The notes beneath the pieces were generated by a model. The model made no database searches, had not been told where the DNA came from, and was given only the letters and a program-made list of their open reading frames with translations. DNA of 21,556 nucleotides from a virus. Location: positions 1 through 21,556 of the IMG/VR virus record IMGVR_UViG_3300049218_000482; one strand, written 5' to 3'. Within the stretch, counting starts at the first letter, position 1, and the number at the start of each line of letters is the position of its first letter. Of this stretch, positions 1,105 to 19,757 are shown piece after piece. The translations under genes and the position numbers were made by a program.

Positions 1105-1614
1105 TCAACGCAGACACACCTCGCGGATATAAGCCTGCGCGGCGATCAAAGCTGCCTGATTGGTGATGAGGGCGGCGCGGAGATCGAGAACACGTTGTCC
1201 AGCATCTGAACCGAGTTCAACGGTGCCTGCATCACCCACGCTGGCGGTGCTGGCGGCAGCGGACACGTCGCCGCCACTGGCACGGCAACTTCCCGCGATG
1301 CGCAGCCGGCGAGTGCCGTCAGCCACAGCGCGGCGCAAAGACTGGTTTTCGGCATCGGCATGTTCCTTTTGCTGTGTAGCGGCCTGATCCAGGTCCGCGA
1401 GACGTTGTTGCGCTGAACGCTGACGCTCCAGCGCCAGACGTGACTGATCTGCTGCGGCAGCAGCGATTGCGGCGAGTGCGGTTTCATGTTGCTGCCGCTC
1501 GATGGCGAGTAACGCCACATAACGATTGGCTTGCCATTGCCATGCGACCGAGAAGCCGCTGGCAAACAGCACCAGCACGGCAAGCCCGATGCGGGCGATA
1601 CCCAAACCGTTCAC
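1105..1614 (-). CDS. Rz-like i-spanin
   Basis: This is the inner-membrane spanin subunit, which with Rz1 fuses inner and outer membranes at the end of lysis. The 169-residue product has one N-terminal membrane helix (about residues 6-25). A long alanine- and glutamine-rich helical region with coiled-coil character follows to about residue 95, as in the phage Rz family. The start is GTG at 1614, which overlaps the endolysin stop (GTGA); AAGG lies eight bases upstream and the two genes are probably translationally coupled. The lipoprotein partner is encoded inside this gene in another frame. It is the last gene of the late operon. Rz proteins are poorly conserved in sequence, so the call rests on topology, position after the endolysin, and the embedded Rz1. 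Confidence 0.85.
   Translation of the reverse strand: MNGLGIARIGLAVLVLFASGFSVAWQWQANRYVALLAIERQQHETALAAIAAAAADQSRLALERQRSAQQRLADLDQAATQQKEHADAENQSLRRAVADGTRRLRIAGSCRASGGDVSAAASTASVGDAGTVELGSDAGQRVLDLRAALITNQAALIAAQAYIREVCLR
1146..1355 (-). CDS. Rz1-like o-spanin lipoprotein, nested in Rz
   Basis: A 69-residue frame lies wholly inside the Rz-like gene in a different frame. It begins MPKTSLCAALWLTALAGC, a signal sequence with lipobox LAGC and modified Cys at residue 18. A short proline-rich segment (PLPPAPPAW) follows, typical of Rz1 lipoproteins anchored in the outer membrane. I chose ATG at 1355 because AAGGA lies eight bases upstream; the in-frame ATG at 1361 is only two bases from it. The open frame extends further upstream to 1583, but that part lacks a ribosome binding site and would bury the signal peptide. 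The nested arrangement is the same as in phage lambda. Confidence 0.85.
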   Translation of the reverse strand: MPKTSLCAALWLTALAGCASREVAVPVAATCPLPPAPPAWVMQAPLNSVQMLDNVFSISAPPSSPIRQL

Positions 1615-2222
1615 ATCAACACCTTGAGCGCCCGGCCATATAGCGCCAGCCGGTCCTCATAACCGTTCAAACCGCCATTCACGCACAGTGTCACGGTCTT
1701 CAGATCGCCTAGGTCCGCTTGCCGGTTCAACTGATTGACCGACCAGAACCAGCCCGCCGACAACGCGGCATTGTCCGGGTGCTCCAGCCACTCGGGATGA
1801 GCCAGCAAATCCAGGCCAAGCGCTGTACCGCACTCGCGGTAATTGTCCTTGCCGGTGACCTGAATCAAACCTCTGCCGCGGTATTTCCAGCCATCGCCTG
1901 ATGCCGGAGGACCATTGCCCATGCGCGAGGCATAGGCCAGGTTGGCGATGTTCTCAGGCTGATGAGCCACCGCCAGCGCCGTCGCATCATCAAAACGCCC
2001 AGGCCAACTGCGACGCAGCGCCTGAGCGCTGTAATCCAGGTTCTCGGTCAGACGATTCAACTGCGCCGACTCATGACCAATCTGCGCCATAAACGCTGCC
2101 ACGCGCACACGGGTGACGATCTGGTAACGGCTCATCGCCGCATTAAGCACAGGCACAAAAACGCCGGCAACAGGGCCGGCGTTGGGGAGGATCTGCAGCA
2201 ATTGCTGCTGGTTTAGTTGCAT
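1611..2222 (-). CDS. endolysin, glycoside hydrolase family 19 (chitinase-like lysozyme)
   Basis: This muramidase-type enzyme degrades peptidoglycan so that tail particles can be released. The 203-residue protein is a single GH19 domain. The catalytic glutamate is expected in IGHES (E51), with the second acid near E60 (LTENLDYS). The family motifs WKYRGRGLIQVTGKDNY and CVNGGLNG are also clear. There is no signal peptide, so it should depend on the holin encoded at the other end of the operon. ATG at 2222 is preceded by CGGAG. The stop overlaps the Rz start. GH19 endolysins are common in Pseudomonas prophages and tailocin clusters, so family and role are both secure. Confidence 0.93.
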   Translation of the reverse strand: MQLNQQQLLQILPNAGPVAGVFVPVLNAAMSRYQIVTRVRVAAFMAQIGHESAQLNRLTENLDYSAQALRRSWPGRFDDATALAVAHQPENIANLAYASRMGNGPPASGDGWKYRGRGLIQVTGKDNYRECGTALGLDLLAHPEWLEHPDNAALSAGWFWSVNQLNRQADLGDLKTVTLCVNGGLNGYEDRLALYGRALKVLM

Positions 2223-2288
2223 GGGTGTCTCCGGGTTGAGCAGATCAGTCTGGGAATGCCCGCCTAAGCGGGTCGAGGATTCAATGCG

Positions 2289-3734
2289 CTAAGCAGCGCT
2301 GAAAAAAGCTTCCATCAATGGCGCATCGTGAGCCGCCTCAAGGATGTGGCCGTCACGGTTGGGGTGCAGGCCATCAGGCGTGAGATTCGCCTTGAAACAC
2401 AGGCCGTTAGCACCCAGCAACGCTTCTCGACTCAAGACAAGCCCGTAGCGGGTGTCGGCCTGTGCGAGCGCTTTGTATTGCTGAACCACCTCACCTGCGC
2501 CCCACCCCGCTTTAGGCACCTGGTTTGCCTCGGTCGCCCAGCCGTCAGTGCTTGTTGTCTGCGCAATAGGCAGCACAAGCACGATCTTGTTGGCAGGAAT
2601 ACCGCCCGCCACCATCTGATCGCGCCGAAAATCTACGCGTGCCTTCGCCTGCGCCGCTGTCAACGCAGACGGATTCAGAAGGTCGTTGGTTGGCTCCTCG
2701 ATCAGAGCCGCCGTGCAGTACTTGAAGTAAGCCGACAGTCGTTGATCATCCTTACCCGCCAATGACGTACTTCCGGATATGGCGAAGTTGAACGCACCCG
2801 GTACGACAGTGAAGTTCTTGAGCGACCGCTGGAACCAGGCAGACCCGCCAAACACATCCGCCGGATCGCTGACAGCAGCGGTAATGCTTGTGCCAATAGC
2901 GATCAGCGCAGTGGCCTGCTTGTTTTTGTGTCGCGCCAGAAAGAACGGGTAATAGCCTCCGCTGCGCATCACCGGATCGGCGCCCGTCCAGGTAAATGAG
3001 CCTGGCACGTCCGTGTCTGACATCGTTGTCTGCGCAGGGTCAAAACGGTACATCGCCGTGCCATGCCCTTCGGCCGGGTTTCGATTGGAGTAAGGCACCG
3101 CTGCCGGACCGCTGAATACCGCGATGAGCTTCGCCGAGATGATTGAGCCACCCGGAATCTCATCGAGCCCGAATGCGGATGCGGGGATTTCATCGGCGTT
3201 AACGTCAGCCGCACCATCAGCGATGGTGTAAGCACGCGACCCATTCCAATACACGAGCGCGGCCTTGGGGGCGCCCTCGATATGCACCGCAAGCTTTTGT
3301 ATCGGTAAAGTATTGCCGGTATTGGTCAGCGTCGAGGTGCTGTCACGGTCAAGAAAAGCGTTGATGAAGTTAGGCACTAAGTGAGTGGCAGGTTCACTCC
3401 CCATCAAATGCGCTGAAAGCGTCGCGTAGCCATAGAGCTCTTGGGAGACCGTATCGAGAGCCATGAACATCGGGTTCCAGACTGTGGCCACCTTCAGCGA
3501 TGCAAGAGAACCGGGATCGGTACTGACGACACTGCGCAGGTAGACACTTCGCCACACGCTCCCATCGCTGTAAGCCCACGTGAATGAGTGAGGTGCTTCA
3601 GCGATGTCCGATACCTTGATGACCTGTTCCGGATTATCACCTGCCTTGAAAGCCTGAAGTTGCGCCAGCGTCAGTGACGGCACGCTATCAGCTCCGGTGT
3701 TTGCACCCAGGCTGCTACCGATAACCTGACTCAT
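2289..3734 (-). CDS. SGNH/GDSL-like hydrolase, probable enzymatic tailspike
   Basis: The 481-residue protein has an N-terminal half of unrecognised fold, likely for particle binding and beta-rich structure, and a C-terminal SGNH-hydrolase domain from about residue 273. Visible SGNH blocks are IAIGTSIT (nucleophile S283), AISGSTS (G321), EEPTND (N350) and TPDGLHPN (D454 and H457). Such esterases often remove acetyl groups from polysaccharides. In this position, after the fibres and before lysis, it most likely modifies or recognises O-antigen or another surface glycan of the target cell. It starts at ATG 3734 with GAGGTGAG upstream and overlaps the stop of a 31-codon frame. The substrate is unknown. 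An alternative is a soluble esterase not attached to the particle, but its length and context favour a spike. Confidence 0.75.
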   Translation of the reverse strand: MSQVIGSSLGANTGADSVPSLTLAQLQAFKAGDNPEQVIKVSDIAEAPHSFTWAYSDGSVWRSVYLRSVVSTDPGSLASLKVATVWNPMFMALDTVSQELYGYATLSAHLMGSEPATHLVPNFINAFLDRDSTSTLTNTGNTLPIQKLAVHIEGAPKAALVYWNGSRAYTIADGAADVNADEIPASAFGLDEIPGGSIISAKLIAVFSGPAAVPYSNRNPAEGHGTAMYRFDPAQTTMSDTDVPGSFTWTGADPVMRSGGYYPFFLARHKNKQATALIAIGTSITAAVSDPADVFGGSAWFQRSLKNFTVVPGAFNFAISGSTSLAGKDDQRLSAYFKYCTAALIEEPTNDLLNPSALTAAQAKARVDFRRDQMVAGGIPANKIVLVLPIAQTTSTDGWATEANQVPKAGWGAGEVVQQYKALAQADTRYGLVLSREALLGANGLCFKANLTPDGLHPNRDGHILEAAHDAPLMEAFFSAA

Positions 3735-3826
3735 AAGCTCACCTCAAAAACGGCGCGGCTGATTGGTTTAATTGCTACACGTTTCTGCCCGAGATAATGC
3801 TCGGTGGTTAATTGGGTCGTGTTCAT
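3731..3826 (-). CDS. short coupled frame (31 aa) upstream of the SGNH spike
   Basis: ATG at 3826 opens a 31-residue frame beginning MNTTQLTTEHYLGQKR and ending in VFEVSL. AGGT lies about eight bases upstream, and the stop overlaps the SGNH start as ATGA, so translation could be coupled. I do not recognise the peptide. It may be a real small tail component or only a leader that delivers ribosomes to the spike gene. The overlap and ribosome binding site are the only support. Confidence 0.4.
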   Translation of the reverse strand: MNTTQLTTEHYLGQKRVAIKPISRAVFEVSL

Positions 3827-3904
3827 GGTGTTTACCTAATAAGTGAGACCTTCTGTTGAGTGATTGCCGTCCTTACCCGCAGCCCGACTGAATGCTTCAA
3901 GCAC

Positions 3905-3927
3905 AAAAAAACCCGCTCATTGGCGGG
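3905..3927 (-). terminator. intrinsic terminator inside the late operon, upstream of the SGNH spike
   Basis: On the minus strand CCCGC-(CAATGA)-GCGGG is followed directly by seven T residues. It lies between the second fibre-chaperone gene (ends 3975) and the SGNH module, so it falls within the transcription unit, not at its end. Confidence 0.75.
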
Positions 3928-3974
3928 CTCTATGTGTTTCAACGGGATGAGAAAGTTTCGGGAGAGTTAGTACG

Positions 3975-4307
3975 TTACGCTTGAGGCATTTCTAAACGGG
4001 CAGGCTCTGGCACAAGGATGTGCAGCGTGATCATGTGCTTCAAGTCGTAGGGAGCCCCGTCTTTCGTTACGGTTATCGTAAGCAAGCCATCCGTGAAGTC
4101 CGTCTCTACGTCTGCGCGACTGTCAATCTGATTGACCGTGTAGCCCCATCCTTCATCAACTGGTGGAAAAGGCACCATCCCCAAGGACCCTACGACCTGA
4201 TAAACACCTTTTGATAGCCTGGCAGAGGATACGGCAGTATTTCCCTGCGAAACAAAATCGTAAGTAGCACCGTCAGAACCGAGAATATTGATTGCTGCTC
4301 TGGACAT
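3975..4307 (-). CDS. fibre-associated protein, N-terminal half of a tail-fibre chaperone (second cassette)
   Basis: The 110-residue product aligns along its whole length with about the first 105 residues of the chaperone gene at 5295-5861. Shared features are RAAINILGS near the start, GVYxVVGxLGM and GWGYxVNQ in the middle, and ITLHxLV near the end. It lacks the C-terminal Caudo_TAP-type chaperone segment found in that paralogue. It begins two bases after the stop of the second fibre. Either the chaperone domain has been lost and this half is now a fibre cap or subunit, or the paralogue at 5295 must serve both fibres. The gene is followed by a strong terminator hairpin and about 150 bases without a clear gene. 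Confidence 0.7.
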   Translation of the reverse strand: MSRAAINILGSDGATYDFVSQGNTAVSSARLSKGVYQVVGSLGMVPFPPVDEGWGYTVNQIDSRADVETDFTDGLLTITVTKDGAPYDLKHMITLHILVPEPARLEMPQA

Positions 4308-4308
4308 A

Positions 4309-5169
4309 TTAGATAGCCTTCAGTGTGCCGTCAGCGGCGCGAGTGGTGTTGCTGGTGTGGTAAAGCTTGCACCAAGCCGAGAATCCAGAGCTCCCACTCA
4401 AACTCCTGAATCCCATTTCAGCCGTGGCGTAGTCAACCGCTATCTGCCCGCCGTAGTTAGCGCCTCCGCTAAAAATGGCAGACAGTTCTATCATTGATCC
4501 GTAACCAGTTCCGAACGTAGGCTTATCAACGGTGAGACCGTCATAACGATAAAAACCCGTAGGGTATATTTCTGAGTTTGAAGCGTTTGAAATTCTCACT
4601 AGGCCCGGATTAAAAGGGCTGCCCAAGCCAAAACTTCCGACCTGCATAACAGACCCCGCATCCGAGCCTATGTTAGCGGTTGACGCTGTACCTAACTGTA
4701 GCCCTGCACGTGCTGCAGCTGGACTAGTACCACCTGTTCCGCCGTTTACAACAGGTACTGCATCCACCTGAGCAGTCGCTAGCCCAAGAGCAAGCCTTGC
4801 CGCCCCAGAATCTGAGGACCCCGTGCCGCCCTTAGCCACTGGCAGAACCTCGTAATTGCCGGTAGTGCGCAGTGAAGCGAGTTTATTTCCGAACTCGTTG
4901 ACCAATGCCCGCAGCGTATCTGCCGAATCCTTCACGTATCCCTGCATAGGAGTCAGCGCATAAATGCCAACGGCATTAGTTACACCCTGATAATTCGGCG
5001 ATATCGACAAAACCGTATCACTGGCGATATTAACCACTTCATACCAGCCACCATCAGGACCGCGAAATGCATCGCCTACACGACTGTTTGCTGCAAAAGC
5101 GGTGTTAGTACCTGTTACCGTTGCAACATTATTTTGCACGTTAACCGTGCCTGTTTTGTACCATGGCAT
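4309..5169 (-). CDS. tail fibre, second copy
   Basis: The 286-residue fibre shares its N-terminal region with the fibre at 5858-6736: both contain RVGDAFRGPDGGWYEV, SISPNYQG and MQGYVKDSAD. Both also end in NTTRAADGTLKAI, whereas the segment from about residue 180 to 265 differs strongly. Repeats of the KGGTG type, common in phage fibre shafts, occur around residues 110-155. I chose ATG at 5169 because its product starts MPWYKTGT, matching MAWYSTGT of the paralogue; an upstream TTG at 5190 is in frame but has no support. The variable distal part is expected to bind the receptor on the target cell. Confidence 0.82.
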   Translation of the reverse strand: MPWYKTGTVNVQNNVATVTGTNTAFAANSRVGDAFRGPDGGWYEVVNIASDTVLSISPNYQGVTNAVGIYALTPMQGYVKDSADTLRALVNEFGNKLASLRTTGNYEVLPVAKGGTGSSDSGAARLALGLATAQVDAVPVVNGGTGGTSPAAARAGLQLGTASTANIGSDAGSVMQVGSFGLGSPFNPGLVRISNASNSEIYPTGFYRYDGLTVDKPTFGTGYGSMIELSAIFSGGANYGGQIAVDYATAEMGFRSLSGSSGFSAWCKLYHTSNTTRAADGTLKAI

Positions 5170-5190
5170 TTTTTTGATTCCCGAAGTCAA

Positions 5191-5294
5191 TCTCTATCGA
5201 AATGCATATATACAACCAAAGCAAGCCCCCTAAAACACATGCTTACTATTAGTCTAGGGCGCTTTTATTGGAAAGCTTTACTTATTGATTTTAA
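5191..5294. other. AT-rich gap between fibre cassettes
   Basis: About 100 bases of AT-rich sequence separate the first fibre-chaperone gene from the second fibre. I see no good open frame. An imperfect inverted repeat (AGCCCCCTA against TAGGGCGCT) spans roughly 5222-5262, without a T-run. It may be the junction of the cassette duplication. Confidence 0.35.
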
Positions 5295-5861
5295 TCACTC
5301 TGGCGCTACCGGCCAGTCAATTTTATTCGGATAGCCGGACTGATCAATTACCCGGTTAAGCGCGACTCTGTATTTCTTCCAGGCCTTGAGTAGAGTGACG
5401 TTTTCTTCCGTGGCCTCGTCGACATCAACTGCATCCTGCAGCGGTGCGACCTTGAAGTCTGCAATTGCACGTAGCCGCATATATTCAGCATCCACTTCAG
5501 ACATAAGCTCACTGGTTTTTTCGGCAGGCTGATTTGACAAGGACATTTCTACCGGAGGCAGTTCCTCGACAAGAACATGAAGCGTGATGCTATGCGCGAG
5601 TTTGACGGGTACCTTTTCATTTTCGACCGTCACTCGCAGTTCGTTTTCCGCATACTCAATTGAAATAGTCTTGTCGAGGTCTGCCTGATTAACAACATAA
5701 CCCCAACCCATAGGTGGCGGCGCCATGCCGAGCGTGCCCACTACCCGATAAACCCCATCGCTGTACGAAGACGTAATCTCGCTGACGCCCAGAGACGTTA
5801 CATCGATGATTTCCCCGCTAGAACCGAGGATATTAATTGCTGCGCGAGTAGTCATATTCAT
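5295..5861 (-). CDS. tail fibre assembly chaperone (Caudo_TAP-type C-terminus), first cassette
   Basis: The 188-residue protein has an N-terminal domain of about 105 residues shared with the gene at 3975-4307. Its C-terminal segment (about residues 128-188) has the look of the phage tail-fibre assembly (Tfa/Caudo_TAP) family: an AIADFKVAPLQDA segment, a helix with LLKAWKKYRVALNRV, and an ending IDWPVAPE. Such proteins help fibres trimerise and may stay attached at the tip. ATG at 5861 overlaps the fibre stop (ATGA), so the two are coupled. An internal ATG at 5855 is also possible. The role is well supported by the C-terminal family features and the position directly after a fibre gene. Confidence 0.85.
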   Translation of the reverse strand: MNMTTRAAINILGSSGEIIDVTSLGVSEITSSYSDGVYRVVGTLGMAPPPMGWGYVVNQADLDKTISIEYAENELRVTVENEKVPVKLAHSITLHVLVEELPPVEMSLSNQPAEKTSELMSEVDAEYMRLRAIADFKVAPLQDAVDVDEATEENVTLLKAWKKYRVALNRVIDQSGYPNKIDWPVAPE

Positions 5862-6736
5862 ATCGCCTTTAGGGTGCCGTCCGCAGCGCGGGTTGTATTA
5901 CCGGTGTGATAAATTTCAGCCCATGACGTCGCGCCGGTTTGATCTTTTAAAATTGAACGAAAATAAGCCTTGTTTACAGAAATACCCAGTGCCAGCTGCG
6001 ACTGCCAGCGAGGATCATTCCCCCAATCGGTGGACAGCAGTTGAACTGTACTCCAAGGAGAGTTGAAAGCATTATTTAGACTATATAACCCAGTACTTCT
6101 TGCCTCATTAGCATTACCATTAGAAATGATAGACGAATCCAACCACCCTCCTGCCCCAACGCTCATCACATTACCTGGCTGGGTACCAATGTTAGCAACT
6201 GCAGCCGTACCCAGTCCTAGTCCACTCCTTGCTAACACCTGAGTATTTCCTCCGGTTCCTCCTTTGGTAATAGGCAGCGTGTTTTCTACTGCAACACTTC
6301 CCAAGCCAAGACTAGTACGCGCCGCTACTTGGTCGGAACCTCCGGTACCTCCTTTAGTAACGGGTAGAACGTTCTCCGTAGCGACAGTTCCGACACCCAA
6401 GGAAGCTCGGACTCCTTCAACAGTCCCTGAGGTGCCCAGCACTGCCAGTGTTGCACCGAATTGGTTAACCACCATACGAAGCGCGTCGGCCGAATCCTTA
6501 ACGTAGCCCTGCATCGGCGCCAGAGCATAGGAGCCCGCAGCGTTGTTTGCGCCTTGATAATTTGGGGAGATAGACATCGCCGTGTCGCTGGCTATGTTAG
6601 TTACCTCATACCATCCACCGTCAGGTCCTCTAAAGGCATCGCCAACCCTAGCATTAGCGATAAAAGAAGTGCCTTTACCTGTAACTGCGCTGGAATCCAG
6701 AGTGACAGAAATTGTACCTGTACTGTACCAAGCCAT
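5858..6736 (-). CDS. tail fibre, first copy
   Basis: The 292-residue protein is a receptor-binding fibre candidate. Residues 1-95 form a conserved region shared with the second fibre. Residues 119-145 and 149-175 are two copies of a shaft repeat of the form (V)ENxLPxTKGGTGG...ARxxLGLG. The stretch from about 185 to 270 is unlike the second fibre. The final residues NTTRAADGTLKAI are shared. ATG at 6736 has GGAGG nine bases upstream. It is coupled to its chaperone by an ATGA overlap. The fibre identity is supported by the GGTG repeats and the chaperone neighbour; the receptor is unknown. Confidence 0.85.
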   Translation of the reverse strand: MAWYSTGTISVTLDSSAVTGKGTSFIANARVGDAFRGPDGGWYEVTNIASDTAMSISPNYQGANNAAGSYALAPMQGYVKDSADALRMVVNQFGATLAVLGTSGTVEGVRASLGVGTVATENVLPVTKGGTGGSDQVAARTSLGLGSVAVENTLPITKGGTGGNTQVLARSGLGLGTAAVANIGTQPGNVMSVGAGGWLDSSIISNGNANEARSTGLYSLNNAFNSPWSTVQLLSTDWGNDPRWQSQLALGISVNKAYFRSILKDQTGATSWAEIYHTGNTTRAADGTLKAI

Positions 6737-6819
6737 AGCTTATTACCTCCAAAAAATTTGAAAAAATAAAAATACACTAAAAATAGATCACTATTAATCA
6801 ACTTTCACAAAGGTACACT

Positions 6820-7509
6820 TTAATACCCAGTAACATCAACAATCAAACATGCATAACTTAAATACTCAAAGGTATCATGATAGTCAATTTCACGAGCCGC
6901 CTCGCTTCGACTAGAATAAAGCAACCTATGATCAATTAAATAACCACCTAATGATGGAGTACTGACGACACCACCGCTAACGGCTCGCGTTATGTACGGC
7001 ACGCCATTAACTGTTGTATGCCCCCCTTGAAATCTATAAGGCCTCATTGATTGAATAACCGCCAGTTTTCTATTAGGAAAGGATCCGGAAACTGATGTTC
7101 CTGACGCTAACTTACCAGACTTAACCCCAAGAATTTTCAGATAGTCCTTAGCTGAATTATAAACAACACCAAGCCCCGAGGAGTTCCTAACTACAAGCCC
7201 AACGCCCCCACTCACAACCTCATTACTTGGAGGCCCAAATACAAAAACCTCAGCTGATTGTTCCTCGTTACTATTTGATACAATATTTATTCGCAGCGTC
7301 GTATCATTTATTTTCTGACAAAACACACCGTAAACACTGCTAATAGCGATCAACGAGCTTGTAAGAAGTGGAACATTTAGATGAACATATTTATATATAC
7401 CACCCGCCAAATTTGCAATCACGACACTTTTCTGAAGCAACTCTAAATTTTTATAAGCGTCATCAATCTGAATAACACCATTATTTCTCACACGAAAACC
7501 TACAGACAT
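6820..7509 (-). CDS. J-linked tail protein of unknown function, AT-rich
   Basis: I do not recognise this 229-residue protein by family. Its first residues, MSVGFRVRNNG, resemble the start of the preceding gene product, MTLGFRVRDAA, so the two may share a small attachment domain. The rest is rich in V, S, G and N, as in beta-structured tail proteins, and has no signal peptide or membrane segment. Its start overlaps the previous stop (TGATG). The DNA is markedly AT-rich: one 60-base line (7261-7320) has 19 G or C. This suggests acquisition from elsewhere together with the C-terminal end of J. A tip or fibre-like role is inferred from position only. Confidence 0.6.
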   Translation of the reverse strand: MSVGFRVRNNGVIQIDDAYKNLELLQKSVVIANLAGGIYKYVHLNVPLLTSSLIAISSVYGVFCQKINDTTLRINIVSNSNEEQSAEVFVFGPPSNEVVSGGVGLVVRNSSGLGVVYNSAKDYLKILGVKSGKLASGTSVSGSFPNRKLAVIQSMRPYRFQGGHTTVNGVPYITRAVSGGVVSTPSLGGYLIDHRLLYSSRSEAAREIDYHDTFEYLSYACLIVDVTGY

Positions 7510-12751: not shown

Positions 12752-12776
12752 AAATAAGGCTGCGTAATGACAGCCT
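12752..12776 (-). terminator. weak hairpin between K and I
   Basis: AGGCTG (12757-12762) pairs with CAGCCT (12771-12776). On the minus strand it is followed by TATTTATT, not an uninterrupted T-run. It could be a weak terminator or an mRNA-stabilising hairpin. Confidence 0.35.
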
Positions 12777-12803
12777 GTAAATGAATGGATCTTCTGAAGT
12801 GGA

Positions 12804-13559
12804 CTACCTCGCCAGCCGATGCCGAAGCACCATTCTCGTCCGCGCCAGCCAGGGCCCGCCGAACACGATAATCTCCGAAGGTCGACCGTACAGGTGATGC
12901 AGCAGAAACGGCCCGGCACCTTGCACTGCCACGGTTTCACCGGGCAGCGCTGGATCATCGCCCAGGTAGATACCGGCATGGTTCGGGTGTTTGGTGCGGC
13001 CAATTTCCATGATGATGATGTCGCCGCGCTGCGGTGTGCCGACACGTTCAAAGCCTGCGTCGGCGTAGCGGTCTTCATAGTGGCTGGGACCGCCATCGTG
13101 CTCCCACCAGCCGTCCTCACGGCTGTAGGCTTCGAACGCCAGACCCCATTCCCGCGAATACCAGTCGGCGCAGACTTGCCAGCAATCCCAGGCGCCATGC
13201 ACGAACGGACGTTTGAGCAACGGCGTGTGCCCGGTCGGCAAAACGGTGCGCAGGTCACCTTCCGGCCAACTGAGAATATGCCAGGGCAAACCGGTGGCTT
13301 CGCACATGGCGAGGTCACGCGGCGACGGGCGACTGGTGGCATCGGGATGTGAATGAACGATGCCGGTCACCTCGCCCCGATCCTCTGCGTCGGCGTATTC
13401 CTGTGCAGCGATACGAAACTCTTCGCTGGGTTCAGTGGCGTTGTTAACGCAAGCGATGTACTGCTCGATGCCGTCTGTGGAGATGATCAAACCGCAGCTT
13501 TCCCGAGGGTATTCTGCGACCGCGTGCGCTCTGATCGCGTCGAGGGTCTGCGTGCGCAT
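12804..13559 (-). CDS. tail tip peptidase, lambda K-like (JAMM + NlpC/P60)
   Basis: The 251-residue protein carries two peptidase domains in the usual K order. The first is a JAMM/Mov34 metalloprotease-like domain with E20 and the motif H69-S-H71-x7-S79-x2-D82, all residues present. The second is an NlpC/P60 domain with Cys126 in AWDCWQ and His194 in PNHAG. In lambda-like phages K is needed for tip assembly and may cut peptidoglycan during penetration. Both active sites look intact, which fits a working particle. ATG 13559 follows the L stop within two bases and has AGGAG upstream. Confidence 0.93.
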   Translation of the reverse strand: MRTQTLDAIRAHAVAEYPRESCGLIISTDGIEQYIACVNNATEPSEEFRIAAQEYADAEDRGEVTGIVHSHPDATSRPSPRDLAMCEATGLPWHILSWPEGDLRTVLPTGHTPLLKRPFVHGAWDCWQVCADWYSREWGLAFEAYSREDGWWEHDGGPSHYEDRYADAGFERVGTPQRGDIIIMEIGRTKHPNHAGIYLGDDPALPGETVAVQGAGPFLLHHLYGRPSEIIVFGGPWLARTRMVLRHRLAR

Positions 13560-13561
13560 GG

Positions 13562-14311
13562 TCAGCTCCTGGCGATCAGTGAGACCGCTGGAAAGCCGCC
13601 GAATGGCAGTTGGTTGGCTTGGCCGAAACGCGGATCACAGCCGCGCACCAGCGTCCCGTCACATTGATCTTTGGCTGGATCGTCAGTGGCTTTGCCGTCC
13701 TTGTCGATATAAGGGCCGGTGTAGCCGCAGTCAGGGCCGCGATAACCTCCGGTCAGGCACCAGTGGCACAAGGTGGTCATCTGTCGGCCAATGGATTCGT
13801 TGCCGACATCCCCTGGGCTGGCCAGCTCCCAGGTGACGTTCTCACCGTCTTCGTTGGTTTTCTGATCCAGAAACCAGACTTCGATGGACTCCTGCGTCGG
13901 GTCTGCCTCGTCGTTGCCCGCAGCGAAGTTCACCACGTCCAGATAACGGCCGAGGGTGTGGCGCAGGGTCAGCTTGAATTCGAGCAAATCCTCGAAGGCC
14001 AGACACAGCGCGGTGATGCGCCCGTTGACGTTGCCCACTGAAAGCTTTGGTCGAACCGCAGTACCGTCGCCATTGGCTTCGATGCCGTCGATCTGCAATG
14101 GCCAGGCGCTGTACTCATTGCCCTGCCACCAGATGGATTTGGCCGGCAACTGATCGGCGTTTACACCGGCAGCGGATAATTCTTCAGCAGAATAGCCGAT
14201 GGAGTGTCCGTGAAAACGCAGGGTATCAGCGCCGTAATCGGAGCCATCCAGTTCGAACAACAGCACTTCACTGCCAGGTTCCAAGACCTGGAGATCACTG
14301 ATTAAAGGCAT
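13562..14311 (-). CDS. minor tail tip protein, lambda L-like
   Basis: The 249-residue product follows M, as in lambda, and has the L-family layout: a beta-rich N-terminal part and a cysteine-bearing C-terminal domain. Cysteines are at 103, 182, 185, 195, 217 and 225, with C182-H-W-C185 forming a CxxC pair. Lambda L is known to bind an iron-sulfur cluster through C-terminal cysteines, so cluster binding is likely here. ATG 14311 has AAGGA upstream, and the gene lies directly after M. The protein would link the hub to the tube. Confidence 0.9.
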   Translation of the reverse strand: MPLISDLQVLEPGSEVLLFELDGSDYGADTLRFHGHSIGYSAEELSAAGVNADQLPAKSIWWQGNEYSAWPLQIDGIEANGDGTAVRPKLSVGNVNGRITALCLAFEDLLEFKLTLRHTLGRYLDVVNFAAGNDEADPTQESIEVWFLDQKTNEDGENVTWELASPGDVGNESIGRQMTTLCHWCLTGGYRGPDCGYTGPYIDKDGKATDDPAKDQCDGTLVRGCDPRFGQANQLPFGGFPAVSLIARS

Positions 14312-14320
14312 GGTCTGTCC

Positions 14321-14659
14321 TTATGGATGAAAGGCTTGGTCAAAGGTGGCTGTGACTTGAAACAGTCCACCACCGATGGGCCGTGGCACGGATTTCTGGC
14401 AGGTGTACAGGCCCAGCTCGCCCAGTGGCGTAGTCCACAAAAACGCCTTGGCACCGGCATGGCGATCAAGGAACGCCATGATCTCCAAAGCCCGGGCTTT
14501 GGTCCCGGTAAACGACACCGGATACGATTGCAGTTTGTTGTTGGGGCCGTCGGCAACGGTTTGTTTGTAGCCATCGCCAAACTGCGAAGAACGCACCCGC
14601 CAACTGATGTCGGGGGCGTCGCCGTGTTGCGTGGGCCAGGTAAAGGTTTCGATAGCCAT
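14321..14659 (-). CDS. minor tail protein, lambda M-like
   Basis: The 112-residue protein matches the phage minor tail M family in size and sequence features: a FTWPTQHGD opening, SSQFGDGYKQ, FLDRHAGAKAFLWTTPLG, and an ending FQVTATFDQAF. In lambda-like tails it joins the tape measure end and distal tube to the tip. It lies immediately after the tape measure and is preceded by GGAGGG. It is a standard member with nothing unusual. Confidence 0.92.
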   Translation of the reverse strand: MAIETFTWPTQHGDAPDISWRVRSSQFGDGYKQTVADGPNNKLQSYPVSFTGTKARALEIMAFLDRHAGAKAFLWTTPLGELGLYTCQKSVPRPIGGGLFQVTATFDQAFHP

Positions 14660-14661
14660 GC

Positions 14662-15783
14662 TCAGGCCCTCCCGTTAGCGTTGCGATAACTGACGCCACC
14701 GGCACGCCAGGAGTCGGCCACTGCTCGTTCAGCAGCTGCGCTCATTTGCTTTTGCAGGTTCTGTTGCAACGCTTGTTGATCGAGCTGGGCGCCATCGCCA
14801 CTGCTGTTTTGCGCGTTGACGGTGACCGGTGCGTTGATCTGAATCGACGCCCCGCCGCCGCCACCACCAAAACCGCCGACGGCACGTACGCCCAAGGCGC
14901 CGTTGCTGGTGCGGGTCAGCGGGATGATGGCTTCAGGGCCTGCTTCGCCCATGAGGCCCATGCGCCCACCGGCCATGCCAAATGAGGTCGGGGTGCTGAC
15001 GACGCTGTTGGTGAAGGCACCGCCATTGGCGAAGAGTTGAACACCTGAGCCCCAAGCGCCGCCTTTAGCTTGCTGAGCACCCAGCCAGTTACTGAAAGCC
15101 GCGCCGGTATAATCCGAAGCACTTGAGCCAGCCGATGGGGAGGCTCCCGAAGGAGCAAACAGAGTTGTTCCGATATCGAACAATGTACCTAGAATCCCGA
15201 CCGCTGCCTTCTGTGCCGCAATCTTAGCCATGTCAGCTACGACTGATTTTGTGAAGTCGGAAAAAGAGAACTTTCCGGTTGTCACAAAGCTGGTAATACC
15301 GTTCTCCATTGAGGTGAAGGCACCGTTGAACACGTCCTTACTCATACCCGCTACATCACTGGCTTTTTTCTTGTAATCGTCAAAAGCCGTGCTGGCACCC
15401 TCAAGAATCGGATTGCTGTTCTTCTCGTCTTTCTTATCATAGGTAGATGTGGACACTGGATAAGACAGGCCTGAAGCATCCAGGGTGTATTTGAAGCTGT
15501 CGAGACTGCTCTTATCCCCCACAGAACTGACCGGATCGTAAGACGTTGTCAGCGCCTTTCCGGTTAACACCCCAGCCTGTGTCGCACCGTAATCGAACGC
15601 CATGGGCAACTTGGTTTTGAGCGCAGTGGCTTCATTCCCTTGGCTCTTTAACGACTGCGTAGCCTTAGTGGTACTTTTTTCGATATCTGCCGAAGCCTTG
15701 ACTGCCCGTGTAAGGGACTGCGTATATTTATCGATTTCGGTTTTCGCCTTGGTATAGGCGCTGATGTCAGCAATGGAAACCAT
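14662..15783 (-). CDS. tape measure protein, lambda H-like, unusually short
   Basis: This protein sets tail length and is ejected or released on attack. At 373 residues it is less than half of lambda H (853). Its C-terminal part is a recognisable lambda-type tape-measure C domain: an SMENGITSFVTTGKFSFSDF segment near residues 155-175, MAKIAAQKAAVGIL, then a G/A-rich end with FANGGAF and MGEAGPEAIIPL. Only about 130 residues precede that domain, where long helices would be expected. The sequence coding the N-terminal part is poorer in GC than that coding the C-terminus (27 of 60 at 15421-15480). The start has a strong AAGGAGG. The frame is intact, so this appears to be an internal shortening or replacement, not a pseudogene. 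Confidence 0.85.
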   Translation of the reverse strand: MVSIADISAYTKAKTEIDKYTQSLTRAVKASADIEKSTTKATQSLKSQGNEATALKTKLPMAFDYGATQAGVLTGKALTTSYDPVSSVGDKSSLDSFKYTLDASGLSYPVSTSTYDKKDEKNSNPILEGASTAFDDYKKKASDVAGMSKDVFNGAFTSMENGITSFVTTGKFSFSDFTKSVVADMAKIAAQKAAVGILGTLFDIGTTLFAPSGASPSAGSSASDYTGAAFSNWLGAQQAKGGAWGSGVQLFANGGAFTNSVVSTPTSFGMAGGRMGLMGEAGPEAIIPLTRTSNGALGVRAVGGFGGGGGGASIQINAPVTVNAQNSSGDGAQLDQQALQQNLQKQMSAAAERAVADSWRAGGVSYRNANGRA

Positions 15784-15793
15784 GCTGCCTCCT

Positions 15794-16488
15794 TTATTTC
15801 ATTTCGCTCATCACGAGCAAGGCTTCGGCCTCCATCAGGCGAAGGTCATTGAAGATTTCTGAAAGTTCAGGGCGCTTGATGCCTAGCATCCAGGCGACCT
15901 GAGGGATTGCGGTGTAGTCCATTCCGGTAGCGCCTCGGGGTCCGGTGCGCCATTGCGTGGACATGGCCTCAAACACCCGCACGGCTGACCAGTTGTCTGG
16001 CCAGACGTCATATGCGGTGTCGGGCATGTCCGCAACGGTCATGCCCAAGGCCGCCAGCTCAGCGTCTGACGGCCCGGGTTGGTAGAGCACGCGGGAGGCG
16101 CCGATCAGTTTCCCAGGCGGGTCTGCTGGTAGCACTGCTGATAGCGATCAAGCACGGCTTTGGGCACGCTGACCGAGGTCTGCACTAACGCCAGCAACGC
16201 CTCTTCGCACAGCGCGTCCTCAAAGCCCCAGTCGACAATCACCTCTTTGAGCTGAGCGGCCTGCATCTGGGTTTCAGCCAACGTGCTGTCCGCAAGCCCA
16301 AGGGACTGTTCTTCGATGCGCGCGAACAATGCCTCGCGCTCGCTGTTCCACTTGTCGAACAGGGCTGCCAACTGAGTGCGATCCAGATACCGGAATTCGA
16401 ACGGCACCTTGACCGGCTCCGCACCGACGCGAGGGATCTCGACATCGGCCTTGAACGTCGGGTTGTGGGCAATTCTGATCTTCGCCAT
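15794..16488 (-). CDS. tail assembly chaperone G-T, made by -1 frameshift
   Basis: The G frame (16488 to the TGA at 16107-16105) and the T frame (ending 15794) overlap. The T frame is in the -1 register relative to G and has no ribosome binding site of its own. GGGAAAC, a canonical X-XXY-YYZ slippery heptamer close to lambda's GGGAAAG, lies at 16114-16108 directly before the G stop, in the correct phase (G GGA AAC). Slippage would join 127 residues of G to 104 residues of T, giving about 231. The T part resembles DUF1799 proteins (WSAVRVFEAMSTQWRTGP). In lambda the G to G-T ratio is needed for tape-measure handling and tube polymerisation. Confidence 0.88.
16105..16488 (-). CDS. tail assembly chaperone G
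   Basis: The 127-residue product is made by the ribosomes that do not slip. It is rich in E, L, A and Q with a helical character (YLDRTQLAALFDKWNSE). It follows the tube gene and precedes the tape measure, as gpG does in lambda. AAGGAG lies before ATG 16488. It is expected to coat the tape measure and is not part of the finished particle. Confidence 0.88.
   Translation of the reverse strand: MAKIRIAHNPTFKADVEIPRVGAEPVKVPFEFRYLDRTQLAALFDKWNSEREALFARIEEQSLGLADSTLAETQMQAAQLKEVIVDWGFEDALCEEALLALVQTSVSVPKAVLDRYQQCYQQTRLGN
16108..16114 (-). promoter_or_regulatory. programmed -1 ribosomal frameshift site GGGAAAC
   Basis: The minus strand reads CTG GGA AAC TGA in the G frame. The heptamer G-GGA-AAC allows both tRNAs to re-pair in the -1 frame (GGG AAA), after which the ribosome continues CTG ATC GGC into T. 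The stop codon immediately after the slippery site may assist slippage. Confidence 0.9.
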
Positions 16489-16497
16489 GTCCGCTCC

Positions 16498-17151
16498 TTA
16501 CACCGACGCCTGGTAGCGGGTCGGACGTGAGGCCAGCGACAGGGTCACGACACGGGTCATGATGTTGTTGCGAGACAGCGTCGGCGTCGCCGAAATCGAC
16601 ACGTAGGCGTGGTAATAGATGACCGCGCCGTTAGGCAGGGTCAGGCGCACCACGCGTGCTTCCTTGGCTTCGTCAGCGCCCTCGCACACAGCGACATACG
16701 CAAGCGACGGGTCGTCAGCCACGGTGACCGTCATGCTGGTCGCAGACTTGGTGGTAGGCAGTTGGCGATCATCGTCCTCTTCCAGAAAACCAAAAGTAGC
16801 GAACTGTTGCTCGCCGCCTGTGGTAGCGACTTCGGTGATCTGACTGATCTGCGCCCAGGCGCTGACCGAGCGTACCGAACCGGCGCCCGAGCCTGGGGTG
16901 TAGATCGCTGTTTTGCTGGTGTCGACGTTCTCCAGAGCGAAGGAGCCAGCCTGTACTGCGCTGATCCGTGCCACGCGCTCATTGAGACGAGCCCAGCCGG
17001 AGTGAACCACGACCACATCGCCGGTGACCAGGTTGTGACCCGCTGCGGAAACCACCGCAGGGTTAGCGTTACTCAGCGCCGTTGCTGGCACGAGTGGGTT
17101 AAGCACTGCGGCGATTTCCATGATGGCGCCGTTAGGTAGGTTAAAGCTCAT
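16498..17151 (-). CDS. major tail tube protein, lambda V-like
   Basis: The 217-residue product is the main tube subunit candidate. It is beta-rich and follows the tail terminator, in the V position directly before G. It contains NPLVPATALSNANPAVVSAAGHNL and an ALENVDTS region that resembles the tube and Ig-like segments of siphophage tails. GAGGAA lies before ATG 17151. Its assignment comes from size, fold character and strict gene order; no catalytic motif is expected. Confidence 0.87.
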   Translation of the reverse strand: MSFNLPNGAIMEIAAVLNPLVPATALSNANPAVVSAAGHNLVTGDVVVVHSGWARLNERVARISAVQAGSFALENVDTSKTAIYTPGSGAGSVRSVSAWAQISQITEVATTGGEQQFATFGFLEEDDDRQLPTTKSATSMTVTVADDPSLAYVAVCEGADEAKEARVVRLTLPNGAVIYYHAYVSISATPTLSRNNIMTRVVTLSLASRPTRYQASV

Positions 17152-17173
17152 TGGGTATTCCTCGTTTTAAATG

Positions 17174-17196
17174 AAAAAACCCGCACGCGGCGGGTT
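17174..17196 (-). terminator. intrinsic terminator inside the late operon, between tail terminator and tube genes
   Basis: On the minus strand AACCCGC-(CGCGT)-GCGGGTT continues into TTTTCAT. The hairpin stands between the genes ending at 17221 and starting at 17151, near the head of the late operon. Confidence 0.75.
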
Positions 17197-17220
17197 GTGG
17201 TTTTGCCCTTGTGGGCGGAA

Positions 17221-17631
17221 TCAGTAAGTGTCGGCGCGGTACTGAAAGCTTGCGGCGACGGTATACGTAGTGGCGTCCTGAACGCCCGGCGCAGGCTTGA
17301 CCGGGGTCAGCACCATCACCGCGAAATCATCGCGACTCAGGCGCAAGTAAGCCGGAAACAATGCCGCCAGCTCATCGACCAGGGTGTCCGCCAGGCCAGC
17401 ACCGCTGCCCAGCGGCGTGACGATGCTGATCTGGAAAGAGCCGGTATACACATAGAGGTCTGCGCCCAGAGTGCTGCTGTCAGTGCTGACCGGCAGCATC
17501 AACGGCTTGAGCCATGTTTCGCCGGCTTGCGGTACAAAATCGAGGCCTTGCAGGGCAACGCGCAAGGTTTTTGCAGACGCCCATTGACTCAGGCGCTGTT
17601 CAAGCAGCGAGCGAATCAGCGCATGGCTCAT
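17221..17631 (-). CDS. tail terminator / U-like minor tail protein (DUF4128-like)
   Basis: The 136-residue product begins with a helix (ALIRSLLEQRLSQWA), followed by alternating strands and the segment GSFQISIVTPLGSG. This is the layout of siphophage tail-completion/terminator proteins of the DUF4128 type. It caps the tube when the tape measure length is reached. It is the first tail gene, and no Z-like protein, which in phage joins head to tail, is present, as expected if no head is made. ATG 17631 overlaps the stop of a 16-codon leader frame. Confidence 0.78.
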   Translation of the reverse strand: MSHALIRSLLEQRLSQWASAKTLRVALQGLDFVPQAGETWLKPLMLPVSTDSSTLGADLYVYTGSFQISIVTPLGSGAGLADTLVDELAALFPAYLRLSRDDFAVMVLTPVKPAPGVQDATTYTVAASFQYRADTY

Positions 17632-17678
17632 CGCAGCTCCTTTCGGCCAGTCAGGCCAAGGTATTGAAGGTGATACAT
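17628..17678 (-). CDS. 16-codon leader frame before the tail terminator gene
   Basis: ATG at 17678, with GGAG eight bases upstream, opens a 16-residue frame MYHLQYLGLTGRKELR. Its stop overlaps the next start as ATGA. It resembles a translational-coupling leader. I do not recognise the peptide, and it may not have a function as a protein. Confidence 0.4.
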   Translation of the reverse strand: MYHLQYLGLTGRKELR

Positions 17679-17696
17679 GGTCAAGTCTCCATAATG

Positions 17697-17717
17697 AAAA
17701 ACCCGCCGAAGCGGGTT
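17697..17717 (-). terminator. UUCG-loop intrinsic terminator directly after the holin gene
   Basis: On the minus strand AACCCGC-TTCG-GCGGGTT is followed by TTTCATT. A C(UUCG)G tetraloop is exceptionally stable. It separates the holin from the tail genes and could limit structural gene expression unless transcription is antiterminated. Confidence 0.8.
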
Positions 17718-17749
17718 AATGGGTTGCTCAGAAATGGGAAGTGGCTGGC

Positions 17750-18070
17750 TCAGACGGAGTCCATCTTCCTGCTGATCAAACGGATGATCAGCTCGCGAAT
17801 TGCCGTGACGCCGATGAAGCCAATTGCGCCGCCAGCGCCTACCGACAAGCTGGAAGGCCAGGCCATCCATTCGATAACGCTGCTGGCCGACAGGCTCAGC
17901 GCGCCGCAGATAAGGGCCTCAAGGACAACCCGCAGCTTGCTGGTCTCCTTGGCGTCATACAGCACCCGCAGCACCGAAATGATCACGGCCATGATTGCTC
18001 CTTGCCAGATCGGGGTACGCAGAACCAGCCAGATATCAGCCCAAACTGACGGGTCTTTGTCCGGCGTCAT
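17750..18070 (-). CDS. holin
   Basis: The 106-residue membrane protein has three hydrophobic segments, about 20-38, 47-67 and 77-98, and a charged C-terminus (RLISRKMDSV), consistent with a class I (lambda S-type) holin. It opens the inner membrane so that the GH19 endolysin can reach peptidoglycan. I chose ATG at 18070, giving MTPDKDPSVWADIW, because GAGAG lies just upstream. The open frame extends to 18196, but that extension is not holin-like and overlaps the late promoter region. Being first in the late operon while endolysin and spanins are last is an arrangement known in Pseudomonas pyocin and tailocin clusters. Confidence 0.87.
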   Translation of the reverse strand: MTPDKDPSVWADIWLVLRTPIWQGAIMAVIISVLRVLYDAKETSKLRVVLEALICGALSLSASSVIEWMAWPSSLSVGAGGAIGFIGVTAIRELIIRLISRKMDSV

Positions 18071-18280
18071 GGCTGCTCTCACAGGGATTGGGTTGCAGGG
18101 GGAACACCCGCCGACCAAGCCCTTAGAGGCCAACCAACAGATGTTTCGTAAGAGATGTCGGGTTATGCATAAGCGCAAAAACCAGAGCATGGACAAAATC
18201 TACGGGACGGCGACAACGCTGTAAACAATTATTTATGCATCAGTGCAAATTAATCTGTGATAACGCCGCCCTGAAACGCA
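18071..18280 (-). promoter_or_regulatory. late-operon promoter and operator region
   Basis: No gene is seen here. On the minus strand TTGCAC (18248-18243) and TTTACA (18225-18220) are 17 bases apart and form a candidate, non-ideal promoter, leaving a leader of about 140 bases before the holin. Two related inverted repeats are present: TGCATAAGCGCA (18166-18177) and TGCATCAGTGCA (18236-18247), both of the form TGCR-N4-YGCA and embedded in a 17-base direct repeat with two mismatches (18163-18179 and 18233-18249). The second overlaps the candidate -35. They match the central site of the repressor region at 18953-18964. Confidence 0.55.
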
Positions 18281-18306
18281 AAAAAACCGGCGCAGTGACC
18301 GGTTTT
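18281..18306 (-). terminator. terminator between the putative late regulator and the late promoter
   Basis: AAAACCGG (18283-18290) and CCGGTTTT (18299-18306) form an 8-base-pair stem; the minus strand then continues as TTTTTT. It lies about 50 bases after the regulator gene and isolates it from the late operon. Confidence 0.85.
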
Positions 18307-18358
18307 ATTGAGTTAAGTCTCATATGCATAAAGACAAGGACGAGAGAAGCAACGACCG

Positions 18359-18913
18359 TTAAACGGCATCGTTTGACAGCACGCCTTCGCTGTCGCAAAT
18401 GGCCTGCACCTGAACCAGGGCGTCCTGCACCCACTCATCCAGCGTGCGACGAATAGCGCTGGCCCAGCGTTGCCGGGTGCGCTCTGAGCGCACTTCGTTA
18501 TCCCAGGTAGACATGTCATACCAAGACGCCGGCAGCGTGCCAATGGAGCGCTTCCCCACCGCCGCACCCTTGGGTTTGGCAAACCCCCAGGTCGACACGC
18601 AACGCTCACGAAACACAGCAGGAGCAGGCGTATTAACCCTTTCACAGAGCTGTTCAAGGGCTGCAATCTTGTGTTGCGTGTGGGTTGAATATCGTGCCGT
18701 CAACGCAGCCCAGTGGTCGCCACTCAAGACGCCATGAAGGCGTGCGTACATCCAGCAGTCGTGAATTTTCATGTCCTCGCGAGACAGCCCGCTGCCCCTG
18801 CGGCGGACCTCTCCCGAATCGATTTTGCCTTGCCATGACTGGCTGCGAATATCATGCAGCGTCTCGGTCGCCATCACCCTGACCACAGCCGTTACCGCAT
18901 TTCGATAGATCAT
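18359..18913 (-). CDS. putative late-gene regulator of unknown family (PrtN or Q analogue by position)
   Basis: I do not recognise a named family. The 184-residue soluble protein is basic in its N-terminal part (residues 20-60: an RRRGSGLSREDMKIHDCWMY stretch). It has a compact middle (SGDHWAALTARYS) and a helical C-terminus (TRQRWASAIRRTLDEWVQ). It is divergent from the repressor and lies immediately before the late promoter, the position of PrtN in pyocins and of Q in lambdoid phages. I chose ATG 18913, with GAGG eight bases upstream, over the GTG at 18943. A minus-strand promoter TTGCAA-17-TTTAAT (18992-18964) overlaps operator-like repeats, so repressor control is likely. Activator or antiterminator are both possible. 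Confidence 0.6.
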   Translation of the reverse strand: MIYRNAVTAVVRVMATETLHDIRSQSWQGKIDSGEVRRRGSGLSREDMKIHDCWMYARLHGVLSGDHWAALTARYSTHTQHKIAALEQLCERVNTPAPAVFRERCVSTWGFAKPKGAAVGKRSIGTLPASWYDMSTWDNEVRSERTRQRWASAIRRTLDEWVQDALVQVQAICDSEGVLSNDAV

Positions 18914-18930
18914 TGAGTGCACCTCGAGGA

Positions 18931-19000
18931 TTGCATATCGCACACAAATGTATGCGTTAACGCATTAAACATTTGCGAAATAACATTTGCAATATGCAAA
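18931..19000. promoter_or_regulatory. divergent promoter/operator region between repressor and late regulator
   Basis: Three dyads are visible: TGCATATCGCA (18932-18942), the perfect palindrome ATGCGTTAACGCAT (18952-18965), and TTTGCAATATGCAAA (18986-19000). The best promoter is on the minus strand, TTGCAA (18992-18987), 17 bases, TTTAAT (18969-18964), so the -35 lies in the third dyad and the start point in the second. Three operators between two divergent genes resembles a lambdoid switch. The rightward repressor promoter cannot be placed with confidence. Confidence 0.7.
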
Positions 19001-19022
19001 AACGCGAATCAATATGCACGCC

Positions 19023-19757
19023 ATGGAAAAACGAACGGTTTCGCAAACACTCAGAGCACTGCTCGCTCGCGACGGGATTACCCCCACGGAACTCCACCGT
19101 CGCACCGAGGTGCCGCAATCAACGCTGTCCAGGATCCTCAACGACAAAATCGCGGACCCTGCGGACAAGCACATCTCCCGAATCGCTGGCTATTTTCGGG
19201 TGTCCACCGATCAGTTGCGCGGGCGCGTACCGCTGCCCACACAGACGGCGGAGGGCTTGAGTGTCGAACACCCAGGCATGCAGGACATCAGTGTCTGGGA
19301 CGATGCAACACCGCTGGAGGTTGATGAAGTGTCAGTCCCTTTTCTACGCGAGGTTGAATTGGCTGCCGGATCGGGAAGGTTCGTCATCGAAGAGAGCTCA
19401 AACGCCTCGTTGCGTTTCGGCAAACGCAGCCTGCGCAACAATGGCGTGCAGTTCGATCACGCCAAGTGCGTGACGGTCCGCGGCAACAGCATGCTGCCGG
19501 TGCTGCGCGACGGCGCGACTGTGGGCGTCAACATCGGCAAATCGGCCATTGGCGATATCACTGACGGTGATCTCTACGCCATTAACCATAATGGCCAGTT
19601 ACGCGTAAAACAGGTGTATCGCCTGCCATCGGGTATCCGCTTTCGCAGCTTCAACCGTGACGAGCACCCCGACGAGGACTACAGCTTTCAGCAGATTCAG
19701 GAAGAGCAAATCGCCATTCTCGGCCATGTGTTCTGGTGGGGCATGTTCGCGCGCTGA
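19023..19757 (+). CDS. CI/LexA-like autocleavable repressor (PrtR-type)
   Basis: The 244-residue protein has an N-terminal helix-turn-helix (about residues 18-41, with PTELHRRTEVPQSTLSRIL) and a C-terminal S24 peptidase domain. The expected cleavage pair is A115-G116 in ELAAGSG, with nucleophile S156 in RGNSMLP and Lys196 in LRVKQVY. All are present, so RecA-stimulated self-cleavage after DNA damage is likely, which would induce the locus. I chose ATG 19023 as giving the usual N-terminus (MEKRTVSQTL). ATG 19014 and an even earlier TTG are in frame. None has a clear Shine-Dalgarno sequence, so a leaderless mRNA as for lambda cI is possible. It probably binds the dyads just upstream. Confidence 0.92.
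   Translation: MEKRTVSQTLRALLARDGITPTELHRRTEVPQSTLSRILNDKIADPADKHISRIAGYFRVSTDQLRGRVPLPTQTAEGLSVEHPGMQDISVWDDATPLEVDEVSVPFLREVELAAGSGRFVIEESSNASLRFGKRSLRNNGVQFDHAKCVTVRGNSMLPVLRDGATVGVNIGKSAIGDITDGDLYAINHNGQLRVKQVYRLPSGIRFRSFNRDEHPDEDYSFQQIQEEQIAILGHVFWWGMFAR

Follow-up and report, generated by a model that had tools for sequence, protein, structure and literature searches.

The stretch of DNA analyzed here (the window) is the 21,556-base IMG/VR record IMGVR_UViG_3300049218_000482. It carries a block of phage genes that lies between a tRNA gene and a group of chromosomal genes, and its features are as follows.

913 to 1002, plus strand, tRNA-Ser(GGA), left chromosomal edge of the island (ARAGORN)
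1018 to 1054, plus strand, host terminator behind the tRNA (alignment with empty sites)
1105 to 1614, minus strand, Rz (i-spanin; PF03245, 2e-17)
1146 to 1361, minus strand, putative Rz1-like lipoprotein frame inside Rz (MPMPKTSLCAALWLTALAGC...; translation read by eye)
1611 to 2222, minus strand, GH19 endolysin (PF00182, 7e-10)
2289 to 3734, minus strand, GDSL/SGNH hydrolase (PF13472, 7e-10)
3975 to 4307, minus strand, fiber chaperone 2 (47% identity to chaperone 1 over 106 aa)
4309 to 5190, minus strand, tail fiber 2 (PHROG tail-fiber families)
5295 to 5861, minus strand, fiber chaperone 1 (PF02413, 1e-16)
5858 to 6736, minus strand, tail fiber 1 (PHROG tail-fiber families)
6820 to 7509, minus strand, phage protein (PHROG, phrog_4062)
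7509 to 7805, minus strand, phage protein (PHROG, phrog_2427)
7802 to 11356, minus strand, J, central tip protein (PF24801, PF13550, PF09327)
11414 to 12025, minus strand, I, second copy (phrog_32; clusters apart from copy 1)
12123 to 12734, minus strand, I, first copy (phrog_32; PF06805 just under the cutoff)
12804 to 13559, minus strand, K, JAB plus NlpC/P60 (PF14464 and PF00877)
13562 to 14311, minus strand, L, minor tail protein (PF05100, 1e-68)
14321 to 14659, minus strand, M, minor tail protein (PF05939, 7e-30)
14662 to 15783, minus strand, H, shortened tape measure, 373 aa (PF09718)
15794 to 16135, minus strand, GT-like gene (DUF1799), overlapping G (PF08809)
16105 to 16488, minus strand, G, tail assembly chaperone (PF08748, 1e-31)
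16498 to 17151, minus strand, V, tail tube (PF08813, 5e-64)
17221 to 17631, minus strand, U, tail terminator, the first tail gene, with no Z or other head gene before it (PF13554)
17700 to 17717, minus strand, intrinsic terminator between the holin and the tail genes (conserved in four loci)
17750 to 18070, minus strand, holin, start set at MTPDKDPS (PF05106, 8e-29)
18188 to 18226, minus strand, late-promoter block, TTTACA-17-TAGATT (conserved in four loci)
18283 to 18306, minus strand, terminator-like hairpin behind the Q-like gene
18359 to 18913, minus strand, Q-like protein, 184 aa, candidate antiterminator (phrog_3412)
18914 to 19016, no strand, divergent control region, with palindromes ATGCGTTAACGCAT (18952 to 18965) and TTTGCAATATGCAAA
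18987 to 19757, plus strand, S24 repressor of the CI/LexA kind, divergent (PF00717, 8e-18)
20080 to 20583, plus strand, HTH gene, chromosomal and not part of the tailocin, right edge of the site (empty sites)
20625 to 21083, plus strand, DUF4124 gene, chromosomal, right flank, start approximate (profile and empty sites)
21230 to 21556, plus strand, DUF6388 gene, chromosomal, right flank (profile and empty sites)

A preliminary description of this DNA had reported a full set of tail genes in lambda order, lysis genes, and a two-gene control region, and all of these are present with open, full-length frames. Read on the minus strand from 18,070 to 1105, the gene order is holin, U, V, G, GT, H, M, L, K, I, a second I, J, and two small phage genes, followed by two fiber-chaperone pairs, the GDSL protein, the GH19 endolysin, and Rz. 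The same description had found no genes for capsid, terminase, the head-joining protein Z, integrase, or replication, and this is borne out: the other genes tile the interval from 1105 to 19757 and leave no space for any of them, nor for a portal gene. The complete noncontractile, lambda-type tail set with no capsid, portal, terminase, head-joining, or integrase gene, accompanied by dedicated lysis genes (holin PF05106, GH19, and Rz PF03245), is the makeup of an F-type tailocin, while the head, packaging, and integration genes of an intact prophage are missing. The best match to J among solved structures is the F2-pyocin fiber (25vf, E = 0), and for H it is the 612-aa tape-measure chain in that entry (1e-56). 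G and GT overlap by 31 bases (16105 to 16135) in different frames, which is possibly a programmed frameshift as in lambda.

The tape measure is unusually short. H residues 129 to 373 align with the C-terminal ~245 residues of full-length tape measures, and residues 14 to 367 align with the tape measure of locus L026; compared with these proteins, H is missing the N-terminal two thirds and retains the conserved C terminus. The sequence AAGGAGG ahead of its ATG is a strong ribosome-binding site, and a query of viral contigs with the N terminus (126 aa) found no relative. Related loci yielded 145 uncut tape-measure frames, of which 135 have 800 aa or more (median, 1019), and headed relatives have tape measures of about 800 to 1200 aa. 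The short frames are of 345 aa (L271), 416 aa (L076 and L077), 421 aa (L257), 459 aa (L021, twice), and 473 aa (L254), to which can be added 563 aa (L028), 754 aa (G184), and 219 aa (L080). With L080 and G184 left out, the other headless-looking loci have tape measures of 345 to 563 aa. L076 and L254 adjoin a mutS-like gene (recognized by eye), and L021 contains a repressor, a Q-like gene, holin-like genes, U through J, and lysis genes, with no space for a head. In loci that have a long H and a match to U, a major head protein precedes U in ~46 of 47 (44 phrog_247 and 2 phrog_283 matches among 57 proteins). A short H is associated with a headless appearance of the locus. In a tree built from L proteins, the short-H trait needs at least five changes, and the well-supported branches also force five. 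Because tail genes recombine, these changes mark separate backgrounds and are not five proven deletions. PHROG includes tape-measure-like families of 390 to 463 aa, and short rulers are therefore not confined to tailocins.

The lambda ratio of tail length to ruler length gives a little under 60 nm for 373 aa. Scaling from the F-pyocin, which is about 106 nm long (PMC9598984) and has a 612-aa tape measure, gives a predicted tail of ~65 nm, and overall we would expect about 55 to 65 nm. Two of the loci with short frames are of interest in their own right. L021, at about 472000 to 490600 of G001:C2 (Pseudomonas sp. LP_7_YM), also encodes a flexible tail without a head, in a chromosomal setting different again; its tape measure has 459 aa and its J frame 2171 aa, and it carries two I genes. 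In L028 (Pseudomonas baltica MBT-2), the tail set, with its 563-aa tape-measure frame, lies directly behind Q-like and holin genes, and this locus is probably headless.

Two copies of I are present in the window, in L021, L076, L077, and L257, and in one long-H locus (L060), versus a single copy in 157 loci. The last 46 residues of the two window copies are identical, with 13 silent differences. A simple tandem duplication is ruled out, since the copies within one locus cluster with different prophage I genes; because the copies thus have different phage ancestry, the second I was probably acquired by recombination, perhaps together with a J module.

The two tail fibers are 50% identical to each other. 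The GDSL/SGNH hydrolase is a probable tailspike or surface-sugar esterase, a role we assign by inference, and a search of NCBIfam returned nothing for the fibers, the Q-like protein, or the GDSL protein. The G+C content of the fiber region (2289 to 7805) is 50%, lower than the 58% of the tail core, as would be expected of exchanged specificity genes.

The preliminary description had placed the tailocin beside tRNA-Ser(GGA) and had proposed that its flanks be compared with other Pseudomonas genomes in search of an empty site. The tRNA was called by ARAGORN at 913 to 1002, and empty sites were found in 14 related genomes, in which a stretch of 0.33 to 5.2 kb free of tailocin genes separates tRNA-Ser(GGA) from the HTH gene. 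In these genomes, the order is HTH and then DUF4124, with DUF6388 beyond where the fetched stretch was long enough; because the three genes come after the tRNA at empty sites, they are chromosomal. This also rules out the HTH gene at 20080 as a control gene of the tailocin. In alignments with the empty sites, host homology ends at ~1061 and restarts at ~19,890, which defines an island of ~18.8 kb (~1062 to 19890). Since both edges rejoin the conserved chromosomal arrangement, capsid and terminase genes, which the preliminary description had said would count against its reading if they lay just outside, are not hidden there.

The block from 806 to 1061, which contains tRNA-Ser(GGA) and its terminator, is matched in most sampled Pseudomonas genomes, and the 1050-base query has some match in 297 of 299. 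The HTH gene is rarer, at 9 of 299 genomes (E ≤ 1e-30), and further members were added to the set of carriers beyond those 9. The named carriers are P. abietaniphila, P. graminis, P. petrae, and strains RIT409, NFACC02, NFR16, and LP_7_YM, which we take to be the Pseudomonas lutea group. No integrase gene was found in the island, no att-like direct repeats of at least 9 bases were found at its edges, and an Rfam search gave no match. To the left of the tRNA (1 to 720), the window has a carbonic anhydrase gene where the inspected empty-site genomes have a short-chain dehydrogenase-like gene. In four P. lutea-group genomes (G402, G407, G001, and G197), the site holds small unrelated inserts of 2 to 5 kb with acyltransferase-like, GNAT-like, and unknown genes, and it may be a general insertion hot spot.

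Neither of the gene pairs trpE-trpG and mutS-cinA, the Pseudomonas tailocin sites on record (PMC10598620; PMC8319346), flanks the island, in agreement with the preliminary description; its site is tRNA-Ser(GGA)-HTH-DUF4124. The suggestion that this is a less described position is also supported, as a review gives only those two sites for Pseudomonas (PMC10598620). tRNA-Ser in Pf-5 is a known site for ordinary prophages (PMC2647930), and we found no description of a tailocin at tRNA-Ser(GGA) in the literature searched.

The S24 repressor has the motifs expected of a self-cleaving repressor (AAG at 126, NSML at 167, and K at 208), which would fit the predicted SOS control of the locus. A search for S24 in 15 P. 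lutea-group genomes, which had no positive control, gave none at E ≤ 1e-60. The operator-like palindromes ATGCGTTAACGCAT and TTTGCAATATGCAAA in the ~100-bp divergent region are conserved in four loci. As a match to the consensus, TTTACA-17-TAGATT is at chance level; the block is conserved in the four loci amid diverged intergenic sequence. The hairpin AACCCGCTTCGGCGGGTT (17,700 to 17,717) is kept in all tail variants.

The Q-like gene occupies the position of a Q gene, with a late promoter and then a terminator after it, and this position, the conserved late promoter, and the post-holin terminator together suggest antitermination of the lambda Q type. The Q-like protein was modeled with AlphaFold (pLDDT 83), and lambda Q (7ubn_Q) is the top of 40 PDB hits to the model by TM-score and probability, at values that are not significant (TM, 0.41; probability, 0.23; E = 3.9). 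The protein sequence has no match in the PDB. A query of viral contigs confirmed no relative, but relatives do occur beside S24 matches, so this blank result does not speak for their absence. The late-promoter block was not found convincingly downstream of 22 other Q-like genes. The nonsignificant fold match and the fact that PHROG calls the family unknown would suit an F-type tailocin whose late operon is instead turned on by a DNA-binding activator in a PrtN-like role. We regard such an activator as possible and the less probable of the two, since the gene sits in Q's place, just before the late promoter and holin, and since the conserved hairpin between the holin and the tail genes would stop tail-gene transcription and must therefore be passed in each tail variant. 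We accordingly treat the Q-like protein as a putative antiterminator.

Six IMG/VR contigs (L247 to L252) encode S24 repressors 86 to 89% identical to that of the window and share with it the Q-like gene (59 to 72%) and the holin (81 to 84%). On their right flanks, L247 runs into HTH, L248 into HTH and DUF4124, and L251 into DUF4124 and DUF6388, and because these right-flank genes are the same, the three contigs lie at the window's site; the remaining three end with S24. None of the six contigs, all fragmentary, extends as far as the tRNA, which is therefore only their putative left edge. Behind the holin, the tail of L247 and L248 is contractile, as shown by a sheath (DUF3383, phrog_205) along with a terminator protein. 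L249 to L252, near-copies of one another, have a different flexible tail, whose tube is of the Phage_tube_2 family and whose tape measure has 1013 aa. At the DNA level, L247 and L248 are similar to the window over a segment that starts at S24, includes the holin, and breaks off at 17,690 to 17,697, just behind the hairpin. Tails are exchanged directly behind the conserved post-holin terminator. At mutS-cinA, tail exchange between a conserved prtR-holin end and the lysis end has been proposed (PMC2647930), and the exchange at tRNA-Ser(GGA) seems to follow the same scheme.

This recurrence of the control module, with other tails plugged in at one point, bears on the reading that the locus is a decaying prophage remnant that lost its head, integration, and replication genes by chance and was left with an unbroken tail operon that has no function. 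Such a remnant would account for the missing integrase, for the lack of a detectable att repeat, and for the loss of the N-terminal two thirds of H. However, about 20 phage genes are all intact, H has kept its conserved C terminus and a strong ribosome-binding site, and the I copies differ only silently over their last 46 codons, and so we consider a remnant unlikely.

Every sequence feature of an F-type tailocin that could be looked for was found, which supports the reading in the preliminary description, and we judge with good confidence that the locus is a domesticated headless siphophage tail, that is, an F-type tailocin between tRNA-Ser(GGA) and the HTH-DUF4124 pair on a P. lutea-group chromosome. 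A headless particle and the killing of relatives would be predicted, as is standard for such loci. Upon DNA damage, activated RecA would cause the S24 repressor to cleave itself and free the divergent promoter. The Q-like protein would then be made and, at the late promoter that precedes the holin, would load on RNA polymerase; the modified polymerase would pass the post-holin terminator and transcribe the 16-kb tail and lysis operon. The tail would assemble on the 373-aa tape measure, with specificity set by the fibers and the GDSL protein; holin, endolysin, and Rz/Rz1 would lyse the producer, and the particle would depolarize related cells. Siphophage tails and heads assemble separately, so that a headless tail could also serve a purpose other than killing, for example, as a source of spare tails or lysis for a resident helper phage or gene-transfer agent, and an RcGTA-type tape-measure model does match H weakly. 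That match, at 61 bits, is far below the 220-bit cutoff, and the locus has its own repressor and its own lysis set and no capsid or packaging gene, all of which makes a nonkilling tail very improbable.

What is new here is an F-type tailocin at a site undescribed in the papers searched, a module common to unrelated tails, and a very short ruler. We propose, with confidence that is evenly divided, that the tRNA-Ser(GGA)-HTH-DUF4124 site of the P. lutea group is a third Pseudomonas tailocin dock, at which a contractile and two unrelated flexible tails lie behind one repressor-Q-late promoter-holin-terminator module, and that flexible phage tails, on turning into weapons, have repeatedly had their tape measures shortened, possibly as an adaptation. 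Tailocins attract study as antibacterials with a narrow spectrum; a survey limited to trpE-trpG and mutS-cinA would miss this site, which offers a natural comparison of tails swapped behind one switch at a defined breakpoint. The short rulers in headless loci on separate branches make it testable how long a tail needs to be when it has no DNA to carry.

The F2-pyocin has, like the window, a lambda-order headless flexible tail with lysis genes, and its entry (25vf) is the closest to J and H. In contrast, F-pyocins lie at trpE-trpG and not at tRNA-Ser(GGA), the F2-pyocin tape measure has 612 aa rather than 373, and the matches to the window's tube protein V are phage tubes and do not include the F2-pyocin entry. 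Compared with the F2-pyocin, the window also has two I genes, two fiber pairs and a GDSL protein, and a Q-like gene beside the repressor. The mutS-cinA tailocins found in other Pseudomonas (here L076 and L254) have an S24 repressor about 77% identical to that of the window, and they share with it a short H (416 to 473 aa) and a conserved control end with exchangeable tails (PMC2647930). However, their chromosomal site differs, their tails fall in other clades of the L-protein tree, and no Q-like gene was matched beside the repressors of L076, L077, L254, and L257, whereas the window has one. Rhizoviticin, an F-type tailocin of Allorhizobium vitis, resembles the window in having a headless flexible tail, in adjoining a tRNA gene, and in lacking att repeats (PMC10811719). 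It has a LexA-family repressor and is SOS dependent (PMC10811719), and SOS control by the S24 CI/LexA-like repressor is predicted for the window's locus. Unlike the window, rhizoviticin has a 164-nm tail, has kept replication genes and a truncated integrase, and is alphaproteobacterial (PMC10811719).

Among phages, the I/J region of Pseudomonas phage Medea1 is 78% identical in DNA to that of the window, and the L protein of a P. lutea-group lambda-like prophage (strain RIT409) is up to 85% identical to the window's L. These P. lutea-group prophages differ from the window in having heads and tape measures of about 800 to 1200 aa. In three records titled Pantoea sp. Ap-967 or P. putida 700447 (L055, L006, and L013), the tails or the site are of a type usual in other Pseudomonas groups, and the record names may be wrong.
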